From a virus, in IMG/VR virus record IMGVR_UViG_3300021963_000040, positions 62,001-126,000 of that record: DNA of 64,000 bases; one strand, 5' to 3'. The notes beneath the pieces were generated by a model that had not been told where the DNA came from, did not search any database, and saw only the letters and a program-made list of their open reading frames with translations. The translations under genes and the position numbers were made by a program. Shown here one piece after another: positions 24,178 through 63,062 of this stretch (position 1 is the first letter of the stretch; each line of letters opens with the position of its first letter).

Positions 24178-24206
24178 TTGACAACACCTGTAAATAAATA
24201 TATAAT
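24178..24206 (+). promoter_or_regulatory. sigma70-type promoter of the tmRNA unit
   Basis: TTGACA, a 17-base spacer and TATAAT. It drives the two small basic peptides and, by position, both tmRNA pieces down to the terminator at 24857. Confidence 0.85.
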
Positions 24207-24227: not shown

Positions 24228-24335
24228 ATGCCTAGTCCACGTAGAGTAAGTCAAATCCTAAAAGGTAAAAAACCACCTAAGCCAAAAACTGTAAAGCAAA
24301 TGGCCAAACGAGTTGTCCGTAGAAAGAGTAAATAA
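24228..24335 (+). CDS. 35-residue basic peptide
   Basis: MPSPRRVSQILKGKK... ends RRKSK. It has an SD (AAAGGAGAC) and lies directly downstream of a consensus promoter. It is Lys/Arg-rich, so it may bind RNA or ribosomes. The strong SD and tight packing support it being translated. Confidence 0.5.
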   Translation: MPSPRRVSQILKGKKPPKPKTVKQMAKRVVRRKSK

Positions 24336-24337
24336 TC

Positions 24338-24403
24338 ATGGCATACAGAGCAAAAACTAAAACTCAAGCCGCAGTTCGTAGACAACTACGTAAGCGTAAA
24401 TAA
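24338..24403 (+). CDS. 21-residue basic peptide
   Basis: MAYRAKTKTQAAVRRQLRKRK. It starts two bases after the preceding stop and ends exactly where the tmRNA acceptor piece begins. It could also be non-coding leader, but the composition resembles its neighbour. No SD is evident, so coupling is assumed. Confidence 0.38.
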   Translation: MAYRAKTKTQAAVRRQLRKRK

Positions 24404-24472
24404 TAAGAACAGCGTAAACTGTTATTAAGAAAAGTGTTCTGGACGCCGGTTCGACTCCGGCCAGGTCCACCA
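24404..24472 (+). ncRNA. ssrA: tmRNA acceptor piece (permuted, two-piece ssrA)
   Basis: This is the 3' half of a circularly permuted tmRNA. It ends with a five-pair T-arm (GCCGG, TTCGACT loop, CCGGC), then CAGGTCC, discriminator A and CCA. CAGGTCC pairs with GGGCCTG at the start of the coding piece (24676), with one G-U. Upstream, AGCGT, GTTATT and TGTTCTG pair with GCGCT, AATAAT and CAGGGCA of the coding piece, forming helix 2. The exact 5' end is set by processing and cannot be read here. Confidence 0.9.
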
Positions 24473-24483
24473 TAAGGGGAACT

Positions 24484-24663
24484 ATGAATACTGCTCTAGT
24501 TTGGGTTTTGTCGATTACTGTTTTAGGACCTGTTCCTGAACATAAAATATACGCCAAATATAAAACCAAACAAGAGTGTGAGCAAGCGTTAGAGCAATCT
24601 AAAGCAGAGTACAAGTTGCAGAAAAAGAATGTGTCTGCAACTTGTACTGTAACAATGAAATAG
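24484..24663 (+). CDS. small ORF inside the tmRNA intervening segment
   Basis: A 59-residue ORF lying wholly between the CCA of the acceptor piece and the 5' G of the coding piece. An AAGGGGA SD precedes the ATG. Residues 1-18 are hydrophobic (MNTALVWVLSITVLGPVP), resembling a signal or membrane segment; the rest is Lys/Glu-rich with two Cys (TKQECEQ, SATCTV), as in a small exported disulfide protein. It ends in TAG, one of only five visible TAG stops. Translation is likely but unproven. Confidence 0.55.
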   Translation: MNTALVWVLSITVLGPVPEHKIYAKYKTKQECEQALEQSKAEYKLQKKNVSATCTVTMK

Positions 24664-24675
24664 TATCCTTATGAT

Positions 24676-24856
24676 GGGCCTGCACTTGGTTTCGACAGGG
24701 CAAAGAGTAAGAATAATGGCGCTCGGGAATGTGAAACCCGTAGGATTGGGGTAACCCGGTCGAAGAAGCAAAAACGTAACTGCAAACGACGAACAGTTCG
24801 CATTAGCGGCCTAAACTCCGCTTAGGGTAGGAAATACCTCGTAACAGAAACAACCA
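24676..24856 (+). ncRNA. ssrA: tmRNA coding piece with ANDEQFALAA tag
   Basis: The 5' part of the tmRNA begins GGGCCTG and includes a D-loop-like GGTTTCGACAGG. It carries the tag frame at 24782-24811: resume codon GCA, then AAC GAC GAA CAG TTC GCA TTA GCG GCC, TAA. The encoded tag ANDEQFALAA (after the Ala charged on tmRNA) ends in the LAA signal recognised by ClpXP. A GGGTA/TACCT hairpin follows the tag. Ribosome rescue is the established role; the two-piece architecture is inferred from matching acceptor and helix-2 strands 200 bases upstream. Confidence 0.95.
24782..24814 (+). other. ssrA: ssrA proteolysis-tag reading frame
   Basis: Ten codons from the resume GCA to GCC, plus a TAA stop, encode ANDEQFALAA. 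The C-terminal LAA is the ClpX-binding degron, and the inner residues ANDEQ resemble the SspB/ClpA-contacting part of bacterial tags. Confidence 0.95.
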
Positions 24857-24881
24857 ATGCCCGCTTCGGCGGGCATTTTTT
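24857..24881 (+). terminator. intrinsic terminator of tmRNA
   Basis: ATGCCCGC, a TTCG tetraloop and GCGGGCAT are followed by a T-run. Confidence 0.95.
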
Positions 24882-25006
24882 TGGTTAATTTGTTCAAAAA
24901 ACTGTTATTTTTCAATGGTTACTATTGTATAAATGTGGTTACGTACTATATACTATGTATTCGGTGTAACAGCCGGTATACAAATCTTAATATTAAGGAA
25001 AAATAA

Positions 25007-25979: not shown

Positions 25980-26055
25980 GCGTCTGTAGCTAAGTGGAAC
26001 AGCAGAAGCCTCTAAAACTTCAGAAGCGTGGGTTCGATTCCCACCAGACGCACCA
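25980..26055 (+). tRNA. tRNA with CUA anticodon, amber suppressor-like
   Basis: A 76-base cloverleaf with acceptor GCGTCTG/CAGACGC, D-arm GCT/AGC, T-arm GTGGG/CCCAC, discriminator A and an encoded CCA. The anticodon arm is GAAGC, loop CTCTAAA, ACTTC; loop positions 34-36 are CTA, which reads UAG. The loop is the same as that of the E. coli supF suppressor. The short variable loop excludes Leu, Ser and Tyr types; amino-acid identity is not clear. Pair 31-39 is a C-A mismatch. Its relevance is strengthened by the gene at 29437 with an in-frame UAG. Confidence 0.88.
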
Positions 26056-26577: not shown

Positions 26578-27561
26578 GTGAAAAAATTATTCGTGACACT
26601 ACTGGCGGCTTTGGCCGTTTCAGCACAAGCACAGCAAATAGCCGGTGCAGGAGCAACATTTCCTGCTCCGGTTTATTCTAAGTGGGCTTCAGAATACCAC
26701 AAAGAAACTAAAGTACAAATCAACTACGGCCCATTAGGTTCTGCAGGCGGTATCAAACAATTAGAAGCTAATACAGTTAGCTTTGGCGCCACTGACGATC
26801 CTATGAGCGTAGAAGATCTTAACAAGAGAGGGTGGCATCAGTTTCCTGCAGTCATAGGCGGGGTGGTACTGGTTGTTAACCTTAAAGGATTCCAACCCGG
26901 AGAAATCGTTCTTGACGGACAGACAGTAGCAGACATCTATGAAGGCAAAATTCTAAATTGGAACGATCCTAAGATTGCAAAACTTAATCCTAAATTAAAA
27001 TTACCAGACCAACCTATCACTGCGGTAATTAGAGCAGACGGATCTGGAACTACTGCGGTGTTTACAGACTACTTGTCACAGGTCAGCAAGAGTTTTAAAG
27101 AAAGCACTGGTGTAGGTAAGATGGTTAGTTGGAAACTAAAGCAAGTCAGTGCAGGTAAAGGTAACGCAGGTGTTGCCGCAATGGTACAGAACATGAACGG
27201 TGCCATTGGTTATGTTGAATATGCCTTTGCCAAACAAGGTAAGATGACACACGTAGCAATGTTAAACAAAGGCAAAGTCATACAGCCCGACGACTTAACA
27301 TTCAAACAAGCCACAAGTTCTGCTAATTGGAACACTCCAGGAATGGCTGTAAACTTAACCAACAAGGATGGTTGGCCAATCACAGCCGCTACCTTTGTGT
27401 TAGTATACAAAGAAGGCAATGCCAAGACACAGGATGTATTAAAATTCTTTGACTGGGCATTTACCAAAGGCGACAAGATGGCAGAAGACCTAGACTATGT
27501 ACCTTTACCTGACAAAGTAAAAGCACAGATCCGAGCAGACTGGGCAAAGAACATCAAATAG
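26578..27561 (+). CDS. pstS: periplasmic phosphate-binding protein PstS
   Basis: A 327-residue phosphate-binding lipid-free periplasmic protein. A signal peptide (MKKLFVTLLAALAVSAQA) precedes the diagnostic GAGATFPAPVYSKW. The phosphate-contact segments LGSAGG, RADGSGT and GKGNAGVA are all present. It would load phosphate onto the host PstCAB transporter during infection. The start is GTG with an AAGGAGAT SD. A Pho box lies upstream. The stop is TAG and overlaps a convergent small gene. Confidence 0.97.
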   Translation: MKKLFVTLLAALAVSAQAQQIAGAGATFPAPVYSKWASEYHKETKVQINYGPLGSAGGIKQLEANTVSFGATDDPMSVEDLNKRGWHQFPAVIGGVVLVVNLKGFQPGEIVLDGQTVADIYEGKILNWNDPKIAKLNPKLKLPDQPITAVIRADGSGTTAVFTDYLSQVSKSFKESTGVGKMVSWKLKQVSAGKGNAGVAAMVQNMNGAIGYVEYAFAKQGKMTHVAMLNKGKVIQPDDLTFKQATSSANWNTPGMAVNLTNKDGWPITAATFVLVYKEGNAKTQDVLKFFDWAFTKGDKMAEDLDYVPLPDKVKAQIRADWAKNIK

Positions 27562-27730
27562 TCCTACCCCACTCTACTTTCATCCATAGTCTTTCGTGAA
27601 AATAATAGGCAACCAATAATATAAGTTGGATGCCTATTGCTATTTTTAAACCTACTATAGGTATTGTTATTGCTAATGCTATTAATCTGAATGTGATTGC
27701 TCTTATAATTGTACGTGTTTTTGTTTCCAT
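27554..27730 (-). CDS. DUF2061-like small membrane protein
   Basis: A 58-residue minus-strand ORF, starting METKTRTIIRAITFRLIALAI and containing YYFHERLWMKVEWG. The KaitfR...YYfHERlW.ki.WG pattern is the signature of DUF2061 membrane proteins, which have two short helices. It lies downstream of terC on the same strand beyond a terminator and overlaps the end of pstS by 8 bases, convergently. Function unknown. Confidence 0.75.
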   Translation of the reverse strand: METKTRTIIRAITFRLIALAITIPIVGLKIAIGIQLILLVAYYFHERLWMKVEWGRTI

Positions 27731-46087: not shown

Positions 46088-46669
46088 GTGAAAAAGGTAG
46101 AAGATAACATTACAGCACCGGACAGGATAGACCTAAGTCTATTAAACTCTCATACTCATATCCTGACAGGCGACATTGACGAAGAAAATATTAACTCAGC
46201 CATTAAATGGTTATTGTACGAAAATTTAGATCAAAACAAAAATAAAACATTAACATTGTACATTAACTCTACAGGCGGAGACTTATATCAGGCATTTGCT
46301 TTAATAGATATAATGAACAGCAGTCATTATCCTGTTAGAGTTATTGGAATTGGCGCTGTGATGTCGGCCGCCTTTCTTATTTTTGTATCTGGTGCTAAAG
46401 GATTGCGTTATGCGGCACCTACTACCAGTTTTATGTGTCATCAATTCAGTTCTAATACAGAAGCCAAGTATCACGACATTAAAGCAGAAATGAAAGAAAA
46501 CGAATCTTTAAATGCTAAAATGGTTACTATTCTAAAAGAAGCATCAGGCCTTGCAACAGCTAAAATTAAATCTAAACTATTACCAGCTAGCGATGTTTAC
46601 CTTTCTGCACAAGAGATGGTTGACTTAGGTCTAGCTGATCATATATTATATATTACACAAAAGGATTAA
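46088..46669 (+). CDS. clpP: ClpP-like serine protease
   Basis: A 193-residue protein of ClpP fold from GTG 46088, with SD GAAAGG; the ATG at 46084 is in another frame and closed. S93 lies in GIGAVMSAAF and H118 in FMCHQ, at the normal spacing, and INSTGG is the oxyanion/substrate strand. The usual third-triad Asp region (DVYLSAQEMVDLGLADHI) is shifted by an insertion, so I cannot confirm the Asp. Together with the ClpX at 50460 it could form a protease. Confidence 0.85.
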   Translation: MKKVEDNITAPDRIDLSLLNSHTHILTGDIDEENINSAIKWLLYENLDQNKNKTLTLYINSTGGDLYQAFALIDIMNSSHYPVRVIGIGAVMSAAFLIFVSGAKGLRYAAPTTSFMCHQFSSNTEAKYHDIKAEMKENESLNAKMVTILKEASGLATAKIKSKLLPASDVYLSAQEMVDLGLADHILYITQKD

Positions 46670-50041: not shown

Positions 50042-50463
50042 GTGACTCTTCATCTTACCTAATTACTCCGCCGAGTATATTTTTACCGCGCCGCGGATTA
50101 ACCTTTTCTTTGATTACTAGAAACTCTAAATGGGTTGAAAACTTTATGGAAATGGCTGAGGATAAATTTCCCGGTACAACTGTAACGTTCTTTTCTTCTC
50201 ACGAAGATGCCGATTTAGAAAAATACGTTTGGACATTCCAGCATGCCACAATAGCAGATTTTGTTATTGTAGACATGGATTCAGCATCAGATACTGATAT
50301 TAACATTGCTCTTATTGTTAGTAAAGGTAAACGTGTTTGGTGGGAATTTTCAGACGAAGATAGTTATGTAACCCTACAAACTATTCTTAATGTTTCAGGT
50401 GCAGGTCTAGTAGACAGCACAGAAGAATTTTTTGAAATGATCAGTGACTTAGACAACGTATGA
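50038..50463 (+). CDS. hypothetical protein, Rossmann-like
   Basis: A 141-residue protein between the membrane protein and clpX, coupled to both by ATGA overlaps. ATIADFVIVDMDSASDTDINIALIVSKGKRVWWEF resembles the D-x-V-I-V-D...GK-x-V pattern seen in nucleoside deoxyribosyltransferase- and TIR-like folds, but this is a weak match. Confidence 0.58.
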   Translation: MSDSSSYLITPPSIFLPRRGLTFSLITRNSKWVENFMEMAEDKFPGTTVTFFSSHEDADLEKYVWTFQHATIADFVIVDMDSASDTDINIALIVSKGKRVWWEFSDEDSYVTLQTILNVSGAGLVDSTEEFFEMISDLDNV

Positions 50464-51692
50464 GTAAAAAAGAAGATACTTTAAGCTGTAGCTTTTGCGC
50501 CAAAGACCGCGAACAAGTTAAAAAAATGGTTGCAGGCCAAGATGTTTATATTTGTGACGAATGTATCGAACTTTGTTATCAAATACTAAAAGATGACAAA
50601 CACGAAGAAGCCAAAGAACAAGGGCAAGTTAGCACCCCAAGGCAAATGAAAGAATTCTTAGATCAGTATGTTATTGGTCAAGAGTATTCTAAGTTTGTGC
50701 TGGCTGTGGCTGTTTATAATCACTATAAACGCATCAACAACATTAACTCAACTACGGAAATCGACAAGAGCAATGTCCTGTTAATTGGTCCTACTGGATC
50801 CGGTAAGACACACCTAGCACGTACTATTGCTCGTATGTTAAATGTTCCATTTGCTATTGCAGATGCCACAAGTCTAACAGAATCAGGATATGTAGGCGAT
50901 GATGTAGAGCACGTTATACATCGTTTGTTAACCGCGGCAGGTAACGACATAACCAAAGCAGAACAGGGTATTGTTTACATTGATGAAATTGATAAAAAGG
51001 GTAAAAAAGGAGAAAGCACTTCAATTACTCGTGACGTATCAGGCGAAGGTGTACAACAAGCTCTGCTCAAACTAATTGAAGGTACAGAATGCCGTGTACC
51101 AACAGGCGGTGGCCGCAGACATCCCGGTCAAGATGGCACTATTGTAAACACTAAAAATATTCTATTCATCTTAGGCGGAGCGTTTGTAGGCTTAGATGAT
51201 ATTATTAATCGTCGTATTAACAAAGACAGTACTACTATTGGATTCAATACACGACTAGATACCAAGAAAGAATCTAAACTGAATCAAGTTGAACCGGAAG
51301 ATATTGTTAAGTTTGGATTAATCCCAGAACTTGTGGGACGTATTCCGGTTGTTGCTACACTAACAGAACTAACAACAGACGAATTAGTTCGTACGTTAAG
51401 AGAACCAAAACACAGCATAGTAAGCCAGTTTGAAGAACTATTTAAATTAGATGGTGTAGATTTAGAAATTACCGACGACGCCGCACTAGCCATGGCCCAA
51501 GAGTGCATAGATAAAAAATTAGGGGCTCGAGGATTACGTGCTGTTATTGAAAGAACATTGCTTAAAACGCAATTTGAGTTACCAGAACTACGCGAACAAG
51601 GAGTTGTGCGTGTTACAGTAACTCCGGAAAGTGTTGCAGGTGCAACACCGATTTATCTTTACAAAGGAGAAGAGCAGTCTAACCATGTTTAA
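50460..51692 (+). CDS. clpX: ATP-dependent protease ATPase subunit ClpX
   Basis: A 410-residue unfoldase with all main features. A zinc-binding domain has C10, C13, C32 and C35. Walker A GPTGSGKT is at 110-117 and Walker B IVYIDE at 171-176. Pore loop GYVG is at 143-146 and arginine finger R294 in LVGRIP. RRH at 219-221 stands where E. coli ClpX has the RKH loop that reads ssrA tags. IGF at 260-262 is the ClpP-docking loop. It should therefore still dock ClpP and pull ssrA-tagged proteins. It overlaps infC by 8 bases. Confidence 0.97.
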
Positions 51693-52263
51693 ACCTAACT
51701 TTAAACAACGATCCAGAACCAACAGGCCAATGAGCCCCATGGATCAGTTAAAACAAAAATATCAAATCAACGAACAGATCACCAGTCATCAAGTTCGAGT
51801 GATTGATCAAGAAGGTAATCCATTGGGAATTATGAGTCGCAGTCAAGCACTTAATAATGCCCGAGACCAAGAAATGGATTTGGTTATGATTGTCCCTCAA
51901 GCACAACCACCGCTTTGCAAAATTATTGACTTTGGGAAATTTGCTTACAACGAGCAAAAGAAACTAAAAGAACAAGAACGTAAGCAAAGGGAAAGTCGTG
52001 TAGATGTAAAGGAAATGCAGTTCCGCCCTGCTATTGATGATCACGACTTTGAAGTCAAAGTTAAAAAAGTACGTGAGATTCTTGACGACGGAGATAAATG
52101 TCGTATAGTTATACGTTTCCGTGGCAGGGAAATGCAAGACACTGGTAAGGGCTTTGAAATTATTAAAAAGATTACCGAACTGGTTGAGGGCTCTCAAATT
52201 GAGGGTCGTGCAGAGCTCGCAGGCAATAGAGTATCAGCAATACTTATGAAAGGTAAAAAATGA
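51685..52263 (+). CDS. infC: translation initiation factor IF-3
   Basis: A full-length 192-residue IF3. The N-domain (YQINEQITSHQVRVIDQEGNPLGIMS...) and C-domain (KEMQFRPAIDDHDFEVKVKKVREIL...RFRGREM) are both intact. IF3 binds the 30S subunit, prevents 70S joining and rejects non-canonical starts and leaderless messages. I chose ATG 51685, which overlaps the clpX end; unlike most bacterial infC genes it does not use AUU. It couples to rpsU by ATGA. A phage-encoded IF3 could change host initiation. Confidence 0.95.
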   Translation: MFKPNFKQRSRTNRPMSPMDQLKQKYQINEQITSHQVRVIDQEGNPLGIMSRSQALNNARDQEMDLVMIVPQAQPPLCKIIDFGKFAYNEQKKLKEQERKQRESRVDVKEMQFRPAIDDHDFEVKVKKVREILDDGDKCRIVIRFRGREMQDTGKGFEIIKKITELVEGSQIEGRAELAGNRVSAILMKGKK

Positions 52264-59498: not shown

Positions 59499-60446
59499 AT
59501 GAAAAAATTATTACTATTAGCGTTGGTAACAACTGTATTAAGCGGATGCGCTGTTTTACATAACGCAGGTTCTTTAGAAACAGATCCGACTGTAACAAGT
59601 CAACGTGAAGCAGTTAAAAAAGAATTTGACACTATTCCTGCACCTAAGGCCGGACGTCCTATATCAGTAGCTGTTTATAGTTTCCAGGACAAAACAGGTC
59701 AACGTAGACCTCAAGCAAATATTGCCAGTCTAAGTACAGCAGTAACACAGGGAGCAGAGTCATTTTTAATTCAGGCCCTACAAAATGTAGGTGGTGGTAA
59801 ATGGTTTGAAGTAGTTGAACGTGTTGGTGTTGATAACTTAACAAAAGAACGTTTAATTATTCGTCAAATGCGTGAAGCATACGAAGGCGCTAATGCCAAA
59901 CCATTGATGCCTTTGCAATTTGCGGGAATGATTATTGAAGGTGGTATAATTGGTTATGACCAAAGTACATCCAGCGGCGGTGCAGGCATGCGTGTATTTG
60001 GTTTAGGAAAACAAAGTCAATGGAGCCAAGATGTAGTTACCATTAGTCTTAGAGCAGTTAGCGTTAATACAGGTAAAGTACTGTTAACGGTTACAGTACA
60101 AAAAACTATATTAAGCACATCAGATGGTTTAACTTCAGTTAAATTCTTTGATATGGGAACTAAAGCATTTGAAGCAGAAGCAGGATTAACTATCAATGAG
60201 CCCGGTACTTATGCTGTTAAATCCGCAGTAGAGATGGCCGTTGTAGAATTAATTAAAGAAGGCCGAAAGAAGGATATTTGGGCCTTCAAAGAGGGGGAAG
60301 CAGATGACATGGTTCAAAAGAAGTCCGAGAGCAAAACCACTGGCGAAACAAAGCCATCACTTTCACAGTCCAATGAGTCAGCAGATACTGGCTCAAACAA
60401 CAGAAGAACAGAGAACAACAACAACCCACACCCAGAAAACAGATAA
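59499..60446 (+). CDS. csgG: curli secretion channel CsgG
   Basis: A 315-residue outer-membrane lipoprotein. A signal peptide ends in lipobox LSGC with C17. The conserved CsgG core follows (VAVYSFQDKTGQRRPQA, ALQNVGGGKWFEVVERVGVDNLTKER, ISLRAVSVNTGKVL, FFDMGTKAFEAEAGLTINEP). CsgG forms a nonameric pore exporting curlin. An extra disordered Glu/Ser/Asn tail (about 275-315) is unlike bacterial CsgG. It is the best-supported gene of the cluster. Confidence 0.95.
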   Translation: MKKLLLLALVTTVLSGCAVLHNAGSLETDPTVTSQREAVKKEFDTIPAPKAGRPISVAVYSFQDKTGQRRPQANIASLSTAVTQGAESFLIQALQNVGGGKWFEVVERVGVDNLTKERLIIRQMREAYEGANAKPLMPLQFAGMIIEGGIIGYDQSTSSGGAGMRVFGLGKQSQWSQDVVTISLRAVSVNTGKVLLTVTVQKTILSTSDGLTSVKFFDMGTKAFEAEAGLTINEPGTYAVKSAVEMAVVELIKEGRKKDIWAFKEGEADDMVQKKSESKTTGETKPSLSQSNESADTGSNNRRTENNNNPHPENR

Positions 60447-60536
60447 AAAGAAAAAGAAAGAATAACCTAAGTGCAGTACCGGCTTTGGTTGTTTAAAATA
60501 TATATGGAGCTCGTTCAATAAACGATGTAAAATGAA

Positions 60537-61343
60537 ATGAAGAAAACTAAAAGTCCAAGTAAAACAATACTAGCTGGTCTATTGTTTAGTTTAATTGGTA
60601 CAAGTGCGTTAGCTGTTGATAACAGTATTTTTATCGACCAAGCGGGAGATAACGCACAAATTACCGTACTACAAGACGGAGCGGGTAATAGAATTAAAGG
60701 TATATTACCAAGCGGTAATGTCGGCCAGCAAACTGATCCTGCAAAAATAACAGGGGACGGTATCCAATTGGCTATATCACAGGTTGGTGCAGGCAATATA
60801 CTATCTCTGGGTATTAATTCATCTACTGCGGCAGGTGGATCAGCTACGAATGTTACTTTAAACGCCACTGGCGATAACAATACAGCAAAAATTAATTTAA
60901 ACAATGCCGGCACCGCAGGAGCTAACCAAAGCACTACGTTAACATTAACACAAACTGGCGATGGTAATGATGCTGATATTAATATCCTAGGCACCAGCAA
61001 CTTGGTTAACGTAAGCCAAGCTGGAGGAAATGGTATTCTTGTAGCAACTATTAACGCAAATAACACTACTTCTACTGTTACACAAACAGGAACTGGTGGA
61101 GACAGTACAACACTTAATTTGTCAAGTTCTAAAGGTACAGTTGACATTACTACTGCCGGTGGTACAAACACCACAAGCGTAACACAAACTGGTACAGCCG
61201 GAACGCTTGGTCATTATACTAAGGTCGATATTTCTGGTGCTGGTAATAATACTACAATTCAGCAAGGTGGTAGTATTGATACTACAGTCAACTTAAAGAG
61301 TGTAGGATCCGGCAATACCTTTAACATTAACACACACAATTAA
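60537..61343 (+). CDS. curlin-like amyloid subunit (CsgA/B type)
   Basis: A 268-residue protein with a signal peptide (ending TSALA). It then has about ten short repeats of the (S/T)Q.G..N.(A/I)xIxx type, for example IDQAGDNAQITVLQDGAGN, LTQTGDGNDADINI, VTQTGTGGDSTTLNL, IQQGG. This is the Gln/Asn-rich beta-strand repeat pattern of curlins. It is longer than the bacterial CsgA. The 90-base gap from csgG shows no clear promoter. Confidence 0.88.
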   Translation: MKKTKSPSKTILAGLLFSLIGTSALAVDNSIFIDQAGDNAQITVLQDGAGNRIKGILPSGNVGQQTDPAKITGDGIQLAISQVGAGNILSLGINSSTAAGGSATNVTLNATGDNNTAKINLNNAGTAGANQSTTLTLTQTGDGNDADINILGTSNLVNVSQAGGNGILVATINANNTTSTVTQTGTGGDSTTLNLSSSKGTVDITTAGGTNTTSVTQTGTAGTLGHYTKVDISGAGNNTTIQQGGSIDTTVNLKSVGSGNTFNINTHN

Positions 61344-61344
61344 A

Positions 61345-62472
61345 ATGCGAGTTCTTACTTTGACATTGATTTGTATTGCCTTGAGTACCGGGGCAGGAGC
61401 AAGTCCTGTAGGCAAAGTAACTGAACAAACAAATGCTATTTCTAATATTATTAGAGAAAAACAAACGTTGTCTGCTCCTAAAGGAACAGGCGTTGAAATG
61501 AATGATGCTATCAAAACAGCACAGGGTAAAGTTGGTATTACATTTGAAGATGATACAAAAGTTCAGATCACTGAAAATAGCAAATTAATAATAGATGACT
61601 TTGTATATGACCCAAAAAGTAAAAGCGGGGGCAAGTTGGCCGTTAAAGTAGCATTAGGAACAGTACGTTATGCTTCAGGACAGATCGCTAAAACTAATCC
61701 GCAAAGTGTTGCTGTCAATACGCCTACTGCTACTATTGGGGTACGTGGGACTGATTTTACGGCTACTGTGGACGAAGTAGGGGCTAGCACAATTATTTTG
61801 TTACCTAGTTGTCCCGACAATTATAGAAACAAAATAGGATTTGATATTGCCAAAGATTGTAAAACAGGAACTATTGAAGTCAGCACTGACGTGGGTACTG
61901 TTATTTTAAATCAACCATTTCAGGCAACAAAGGTATCCAGCAGAAGTGCGCCTCCTCCTGCTCCAGTTTTATTAAAGTTAACCGAAGATGCAATTGGTAA
62001 CATTCTTATTTTAGCACCACCTAAAGAATTCAAGCAAGAACAGCATCAAACTAAAATAGATATGCGAGGAGCACTAGATGTAGACTTTCTTAAAGAAACA
62101 GGACTGGTAAACATATTAGATAAACAAAGCGCAGAAATATTTCAGGACAGCTTATCTCGTAACTTTTTAGACAATACATTTTTATTGAACATTTTAGATA
62201 TTGTCAACGCACAATTAGCGGCCCAGCTAGATTTACTCAATAGCACTAAGAGTGGACTATTACCAGACTATTTTGCATTAAGCGGTATTATTGCTACAGT
62301 TGACGAAGGCAGTTCAGTCACTCTCAGTAGAGACGATGGTAGCAACGTAATGAGCGTTACAGTTCCATATCATCAAAATAGTTTGATAATTATGAATCAA
62401 GCCAACATGGAATTTAAGAATAGAGTTAATACAGGGAATACTAGTACAACTATTAGTATAACACAAAAATGA
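61345..62472 (+). CDS. FecR-domain secreted protein
   Basis: A 375-residue protein with a signal peptide (ends GAGA). A FecR domain spans about 35-150: VGITFEDDTKVQITENSKLIIDDFVYDP, VALGTVRYASG and the signature TPTATIGVRGTDF. In bacteria FecR-domain proteins are periplasmic signalling or surface-matrix proteins. The C-terminal half is of unknown fold. It lies between two curlin genes and overlaps the second by ATGA. Confidence 0.82.
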   Translation: MRVLTLTLICIALSTGAGASPVGKVTEQTNAISNIIREKQTLSAPKGTGVEMNDAIKTAQGKVGITFEDDTKVQITENSKLIIDDFVYDPKSKSGGKLAVKVALGTVRYASGQIAKTNPQSVAVNTPTATIGVRGTDFTATVDEVGASTIILLPSCPDNYRNKIGFDIAKDCKTGTIEVSTDVGTVILNQPFQATKVSSRSAPPPAPVLLKLTEDAIGNILILAPPKEFKQEQHQTKIDMRGALDVDFLKETGLVNILDKQSAEIFQDSLSRNFLDNTFLLNILDIVNAQLAAQLDLLNSTKSGLLPDYFALSGIIATVDEGSSVTLSRDDGSNVMSVTVPYHQNSLIIMNQANMEFKNRVNTGNTSTTISITQK

Positions 62473-63062
62473 TGAGATTACCTGTTGTTATATTTTTATT
62501 ACTTTGTATGATAGTAAGTTGTACGGCAACTGTTTTTGCTGACAATACAATTATTGTTGATCAAATCGGTGACAACAATTCTTTTACTTTAGAACAAAAA
62601 GATGCTACTAACAATTATATTCGCATTAGAACAGGTACTATTAGCAATGTTGACTATACATTATTTTCAGTATTACAACAAGGTACAGGAAATAAAATTG
62701 CAGACTTTGAAATCAAAAGCGGTATAAACAATAATGTTACAACAATTCAAGATGGCACAGGTAATCATAAAGCCAGTATCATTGCATTTAACGGATCCGG
62801 TAATAACATATCTGTTAATCAGTCCGGCGCAGGCAATCATGAATTTAAAGTTGATAACTGGAATAATTCTGTTAACAACGGTAACACAATCACAGCTACA
62901 CAATCAGGAGGCGTTGGTGCCGACAAATGGTTTGCTGTAAACCTAAATGGTGCTACAGGTGCTAGCGTATCTGTAATACAAAACAATCCTACTACCCCAG
63001 ATCAAGCAAGTATGTTAATACAATGTAACCCTTGCGGATCATATAGTTATGTTAGAAATTAA
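62469..63062 (+). CDS. second curlin-like protein
   Basis: A 197-residue protein with a signal peptide (MMRLPVVIFLLLCMIVSCTATVFA; a Cys in it could act as a lipobox). Repeats DQIGDNNSFTLEQ, QQGTGNKIADFEI, QDGTGNHKASII, NQSGAGNHEFKV and TQSGGVGADKW follow. The more divergent first repeats may fit a CsgB-like nucleator. It is coupled to the FecR gene. Confidence 0.85.
   Translation: MMRLPVVIFLLLCMIVSCTATVFADNTIIVDQIGDNNSFTLEQKDATNNYIRIRTGTISNVDYTLFSVLQQGTGNKIADFEIKSGINNNVTTIQDGTGNHKASIIAFNGSGNNISVNQSGAGNHEFKVDNWNNSVNNGNTITATQSGGVGADKWFAVNLNGATGASVSVIQNNPTTPDQASMLIQCNPCGSYSYVRN

Follow-up and report, generated by a model that had tools for sequence, protein, structure and literature searches.

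Protein genes nested in the intervening segments of permuted phage tmRNA genes, and a possible competition between their translation and tmRNA maturation

In a permuted tmRNA gene the segment between the acceptor piece and the coding piece is regarded as waste. In the phage DNA studied here (the window, 64,000 nucleotides, positions 62001–126000 of the 134,798-base virus record IMGVR_UViG_3300021963_000040), this segment carries an open reading frame (ORF) of 59 codons led by a Shine-Dalgarno sequence (SD). The locus raises the questions of whether this ORF is a gene, whether similar ORFs occupy the tmRNA spacers of other phages, and how translation of such a gene would relate to maturation of the RNA around it. 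A permuted tmRNA was detected at 24411–24814 by Rfam family RF04321, with a score of 114.7 bits against a curated gathering score of 47, and the same permuted tmRNA, with the tag ANDEQFALAA, was found by ARAGORN. As in other members of this family, the acceptor piece (24411–24472, its 5' end approximate), containing the T-arm, the 3' strand of the acceptor stem and the CCA, lies 5' of the coding piece (24676–24814, first base to tag end), containing the tag frame and its stop (24782–24814). All seven base pairs of the acceptor stem are formed (GGGCCUG/CAGGUCC), which sets the CCA at 24470–24472 and the start of the coding piece at 24676, so that the spacer is 24473–24675, or 203 nt, exactly the segment that a preliminary description of this DNA had assigned to it. 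The other elements reported there are also present: the SD AAGGGGA at 24474–24480 and the ORF at 24484–24663 (ATG 24484, TAG 24661–24663), whose N terminus, MNTALVWVLSITVLGP, is indeed hydrophobic.

All of these features are on the plus strand. A sigma-70 promoter matching the consensus at 12 of 12 positions (TTGACA-17-TATAAT) is located 5' of the transcription unit at 24178–24206 (+), and an intrinsic terminator lies 3' of the tmRNA at about 24856–24885 (+); because a single perfect promoter and a single terminator flank the unit, the tmRNA and the ORF are probably carried on one transcript. Two tiny, strongly basic ORFs (MPSPRR... and MAYRAK...), predicted from the sequence, occupy 24228–24403 (+), in the interval between promoter and acceptor piece. 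No Rfam intron family matched the tmRNA locus, which thus has no recognizable group I intron, and a DNA search of isolate phages with the tmRNA returned no match.

Two other phages, L001 and L180, have the ORF at the same site, with amino acid identities of 83% and 58% to the window protein, in spacers that are also 203 nt long and show no indels with respect to the window. The dN/dS ratio is 0.20 for the window and L001 (Fisher p 7e-5) and 0.27 for the window and L180 (p 4e-4); in the former pair, 17 of the 29 changes in the ORF fall at third positions, and a single change in the spacer falls outside the ORF. The tmRNA surrounding the ORF is more diverged, with differences in the T-arm and the mRNA-like region, the T-arm being fully paired in the window and L001 alike. 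The preliminary description had proposed the dN/dS comparison and had held that spacers of the same length without an ORF, or frameshifting indels, would speak against a gene; in both relatives the spacer is of the same length and the ORF is intact. As the frame is conserved without indels in both phages with an excess of synonymous changes, the ORF is judged to be coding, and that it is a real gene nested in the tmRNA spacer is close to certain. A chance open frame might be suspected from its shortness, and dinucleotide shuffles of the window spacer do produce an ORF of at least 50 codons in 1.3% of cases (0.5% when an SD is also required), but this reading is refuted by the conserved frame and the low dN/dS ratios and is scarcely credible.

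A fourth relative, L419 (49% identity), stands free of any tmRNA; a tmRNA does occur at another position on that locus, and its 108-nt spacer contains no ORF. Searches of isolate phages with the protein gave no meaningful match, the one hit being at E 10. Read-through of the TAG of the ORF by the CUA-anticodon tRNA of this phage was considered: in the window no stop interrupts the frame for 53 codons beyond the TAG, but in the alignment it closes after 7–8 codons in L001 and L180, so the open stretch is judged to be chance.

In the AlphaFold2 single-sequence model (pLDDT 83) the protein folds into a compact domain of beta-beta-alpha-beta type. Its best viral structure matches are small uncharacterized phage proteins with TM-scores of about 0.8, all at E >0.01, and the weaker ones include a DUF1482 protein. 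The likeness to DUF1482 (PF07358) is one of fold, as the ORF scores 12.4 bits (E 0.15) against a Pfam cut-off of 25 bits, and nothing in Pfam or PHROGs reached threshold. The preliminary description had raised the possibility of an exported product, and a product that leaves the cytosol or sits in the membrane, with a role at the envelope, would fit the hydrophobic run at residues 4–14 and the 21–29-residue peptides, resembling single membrane spans, that are encoded by certain other nested ORFs. In the predicted fold, however, this run is modelled as a strand rather than a helix, and the basic n-region of a signal peptide is absent, there being no K or R in residues 1–19 and no basic residue ahead of the run. 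On the predicted fold, export appears unlikely, and action at the envelope is distinctly improbable.

Viral contigs were scanned for similar loci. A search for the tag pattern yielded at least 119 stretches, from which at least 76 distinct spacers besides those of the window and L001 were extracted by pairing-based rules, a T-loop pattern alone having missed about half of the loci. Among the matches listed, 12 of 76 distinct spacers were counted, under a strict rule, as spanned by an SD-led ORF. All 12 belong to the 15 spacers whose closing stem includes AAGG, and none to the 61 that lack it. The three listed AAGG spacers without a counted ORF are L036 and L085, in which an Oxidored-like frame enters from the acceptor piece, and L090, which has an ORF but CCU instead of CCA. 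Four coding-looking loci (L047, L071, L055 and L090) did not pass the strict rule for the SD or the CCA and were left out of the count, and two that passed the ORF filter (L006 and L017) look non-coding and were dropped. Two further scans used a pattern consisting of the spacer ends, CCACCATAAGG ... TTATGATGGG, and the length only. The first of these returned 61 stretches, with all 50 distinct listed spacers (window included) spanned by an ORF; 47 of these were absent from the first sample, and all 47 are coding (1.74 expected by shuffling), with the stop at TGAT in 46 (0.14 expected). The second returned 28 distinct spacers, nearly all of them spanned, two having a shorter ORF and one being cut by the contig end.

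Altogether, SD-led spanning ORFs are found in 84 of 151 distinct spacers among those listed, and they fall into 30 families without detectable similarity at a BLASTP threshold of 0.01, some of which could be merged by deeper methods. Since the ends-and-length scans select TAAGG stems, the proportion of 84 in 151 should not be read as a frequency, for which the value of about one in six from the first sample (12 of 76, among the matches listed) is to be used. The sample is dominated by metagenome contigs and related sequences were counted as separate spacers, so that p-values calculated per spacer overstate independence and the per-family test given below is the safer. Judged from these sequences, protein genes in phage tmRNA spacers are a recurrent arrangement that is found in many water-dwelling phages.

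The nested cargoes include DUF2061 in L063 (Pfam E 3.5e-20; dN/dS 0.10 against L116) and an Oxidored-like domain in the L036 spacer ORF (Pfam 2.9e-12); no endonuclease family was matched by the nested ORFs in Pfam. When the window family and the commonest cargo family were aligned by hhalign, the result (E 0.002, probability 13%) was only suggestive of homology. Homologues of two cargo families are also found free-standing, in phages whose tmRNA spacers are short or lack an ORF; those with a free-standing member of the commonest family have spacers of 18 and 50 nt, where readable. Some loci depart from this plan. In L036, L085 and L120 (115-nt spacers) the Oxidored-like frame opens in the acceptor piece, crosses the CCA and closes in the coding piece, and open frames in L038 and L042 also extend from the acceptor piece across the spacer; if these are real genes, cutting at the CCA would split the message. 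Five permuted phage tmRNAs (L121, L035, L118, L114 and L090) seem to lack an encoded CCA, having CCU or CCG instead, and in these the acceptor stem is extended without the ACCA/UGAU break.

The closing stem is formed between the beginning of the spacer and the bases just ahead of a terminal TGAT. In the window, UAAGGG (24473–24478, +), which overlaps the SD, pairs with UCCUUA (24666–24671, +), followed by the conserved TGAT (24672–24675, +) opposite ACCA; the stem in this family is a shorter one, with six pairs and then a mismatch. Over 41 distinct end sequences of ORF-containing spacers, 422 of 451 cells are paired, compared with 352 for shuffled partners and 218–276 for slid partners, the first five positions being dictated, for part of the sample, by the scan pattern itself, and two-sided changes at several positions show covariation. 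The same stem is seen in 55 end sequences of ORF-less phage spacers. A family search in one bacterial order provided seven good matches, with spacers of 24–42 nt that bear out the earlier statement that intervening segments are normally short; most are hairpins with the closing stem, and four end in TGAT or TGAC. (A tag scan of genome contigs for bacterial controls gave mostly one-piece tmRNAs and misfits.) As bacterial spacers already possess the stem and the TGAT with no ORF, both are older than the ORFs, which make use of them.

The nested genes fit closely into this scaffold. Of the 84 nested ORFs in the spacers listed, 83 have an SD core within the first 10 nt, the SD itself forming the 5' strand of the closing stem. 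Translation would end at the TGA of the terminal TGAT, 1 nt ahead of the coding piece, in 71 of the 84; the stop lies 12–13 nt from the spacer end in 10, the class to which the window belongs, and inside the tmRNA in three. Counted by family, this TGA is used by 24 of 30 among the same spacers (p 2e-7 against one third). In the commonest family all nested copies stop at TGA and have the C-termini MSL or VSL, letters that are dictated by the stem, whereas the free copies have mixed stops and other C-termini.

The SD thus lies in a conserved pairing, the feature expected of an SD-sequestering riboregulator. RNA folding in silico with limited flanks predicts that the SD core is unpaired with a probability (means of 61) of 0.02 for the precursor fragment and 0.08 for the spacer once released, as against 0.84 when the 3' strand is missing. 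For the window, the predicted precursor fold buries the first bases of the SD and leaves the last two open, and in the spacer after its release the SD is partly accessible over part of its length. For one family, the predicted unpaired probability is 0.00 in nested and 0.40 in free-standing copies, although the copies may descend from few events and the p-value overstates their independence. Closure of the stem is accordingly predicted to bury the SD, and the predicted pairing supports some coupling between translation and maturation.

The explanation that we consider best, and hold somewhat more probable than its negation, is that a real gene occupies the spacer, that one transcript is both tmRNA and message, and that closure of the stem ends translation, so that translation and maturation compete. 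On the simplest reading, a kinetic one, the SD would stay free on the nascent transcript until transcription reaches the 3' strand, about 190 nt further on, and ribosomes would load during this interval or, alternatively, after trimming of the 3' strand. A ribosome once loaded would delay closure of the stem, and once the stem had closed translation would end. The closed precursor would then undergo tRNA-type processing, for which RNase P and tRNase Z are expected (PMC3985003), into two tmRNA pieces, and the message would be discarded. Since closure would both stop translation and send the precursor to maturation, the two processes would compete for a single transcript, and output of the protein would be limited to a pulse that accompanies synthesis of the tmRNA. 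The earlier idea that maturation releases or destroys a message is plausible on this basis. As a wider proposal, which we advance tentatively and rate a little short of even, pre-tmRNAs of aquatic phages would be dual-output precursors that also serve as mRNAs. The stem guiding maturation would double as a switch for the translation of exchangeable cassettes that encode small proteins, each transcript being either translated or matured at any moment. Against coupling, where space is so tight an SD would naturally fall in the 5' strand of the stem, and its burial could be economy rather than control, and the spacer ORF of phage Melnitz, described below, has its SD outside the stem and runs into the tmRNA.

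In a reading without regulation, real small phage genes would simply have strayed into the spacer, in the same way as they come to lie between tRNA genes; processing alone would preserve the stem, and the overlap of SD and stop with it would reflect ordinary compact packing. The cargoes belong to 30 unrelated families, the same families also occur free-standing, one of them adjoining tRNAs, and bacterial spacers have the stem and TGAT with no ORF, indicating that stem and TGA predate the cargo. The position of the SD core in the first 10 nt of 83 of 84 nested ORFs and the far deeper burial of the nested SDs of one family than of its free copies weigh against it, although neither proves regulation. 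We think it a real, if lesser, possibility; it accounts for the sequence data almost as well as the kinetic reading given above, and a real nested gene is common ground to both. A feedback like that of ArfA, which is controlled by message cleavage and trans-translation (PMC3985003), was also considered. A message cut at the first base of the coding piece would end 1 nt past the UGA and would easily become non-stop, its product being tagged while tmRNA is plentiful and accumulating when rescue capacity is short. The stop lies 1 nt from this putative cut site in 71 of 84 cases, and the phage also encodes ClpX and ClpP homologues. However, the stop of the window ORF is 12 nt before the spacer end, the cleavage site is putative and the TGA predates the ORFs, and the cargoes are unrelated, which argues against a common rescue function; such feedback is unlikely. 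Finally, the tmRNA could be dead and its remains a mere leader of the small gene. SmpB was looked for in the virus record, which may be a fragment, and was not found, but the tag and its stop, the CCA and the 7-bp acceptor stem are all intact and the T-arm is fully paired despite differing between the window and L001, so that a dead tmRNA is very improbable indeed.

Genes for ClpP (46088–46669, Pfam E 5e-33) and ClpX (50460–51692, zinc finger and AAA domains) share the genome with the tmRNA; ClpX and ClpP form the protease for tmRNA-tagged proteins. A full-length IF-3 homologue with both domains (E 5e-30 and 9e-23) is encoded at 51679–52263 and is, to our knowledge, an unusual gene for a phage. 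The tRNA with a CUA anticodon, of the amber suppressor type, is located near the tmRNA at 25980–26055, and of the 56 long open frames of the window just 3 end in TAG. A free-standing DUF2061 gene lies at 27554–27730 on the minus strand, DUF2061 being the nested tmRNA cargo in L063 and L116. Curli-type genes are found at 59499–63062 (CsgG, E 4e-48; curlin repeats, E 2.5e-6), and such genes are also reported in phage Melnitz and SAR11 myophages (PMC9004378).

The window tmRNA shares with known permuted two-piece tmRNAs (RF04321; beta_tmRNA, RF01850) the order of acceptor piece, spacer and coding piece, the CCA, the acceptor stem and the tag ANDEQFALAA, and with bacterial homologues the closing stem and TGAT. 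It differs in that its spacer holds a conserved protein gene and is 203 nt long, as opposed to 24–42 nt in the sampled bacteria. The accessible part of a 2025 tmRNA database paper describes tmRNA genes interrupted by group I introns that contain homing-endonuclease ORFs, and a tRNA-Ala and a repeat element within intervening sequences, and mentions no protein gene in an intervening sequence (PMC11915505). The endonuclease ORFs likewise place a protein gene within a removed part of a tmRNA gene; the window, however, has no intron match, its spacer joins two mature ends, the pieces are not rejoined, and the product has no endonuclease match in Pfam. The tRNA-Ala is a gene cargo in the same type of spacer, but it is an RNA gene and a single case, and the same part of that paper mentions no link between cargo and closing stem. 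The cultured OM43 phage Melnitz (L305, MZ577097) has a two-piece, permuted tmRNA (PMC9004378). Its 142-nt spacer, after the CCA at about 1785, contains an SD-led ORF, MFKWLSKTRLVV..., which continues in frame into the coding piece; it differs from the window in that the SD is outside the stem, and the ORF is unannotated in MZ577097 and not mentioned in the accessible part of that paper. Searches for papers on tmRNA-spacer ORFs or permuted phage tmRNAs, in a literature coverage that excluded most subscription papers and all preprints, turned up no description of such ORFs, and on that coverage protein genes in phage tmRNA spacers are apparently undescribed.

These observations give a function to a segment that has been regarded as waste. 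Because they are located inside an RNA gene, dozens of small phage genes can escape annotation; the rule of an SD in the closing stem and a stop in the TGAT or just upstream makes nested genes easy to find and the proposed coupling easy to test, and Melnitz is a cultured phage with both a two-piece tmRNA and a spacer ORF. One transcript seems to be both rescue RNA and message, and the coupling proposed from the predicted folding would connect maturation of the ribosome-rescue RNA with the synthesis of a small protein, processes between which no link is known.
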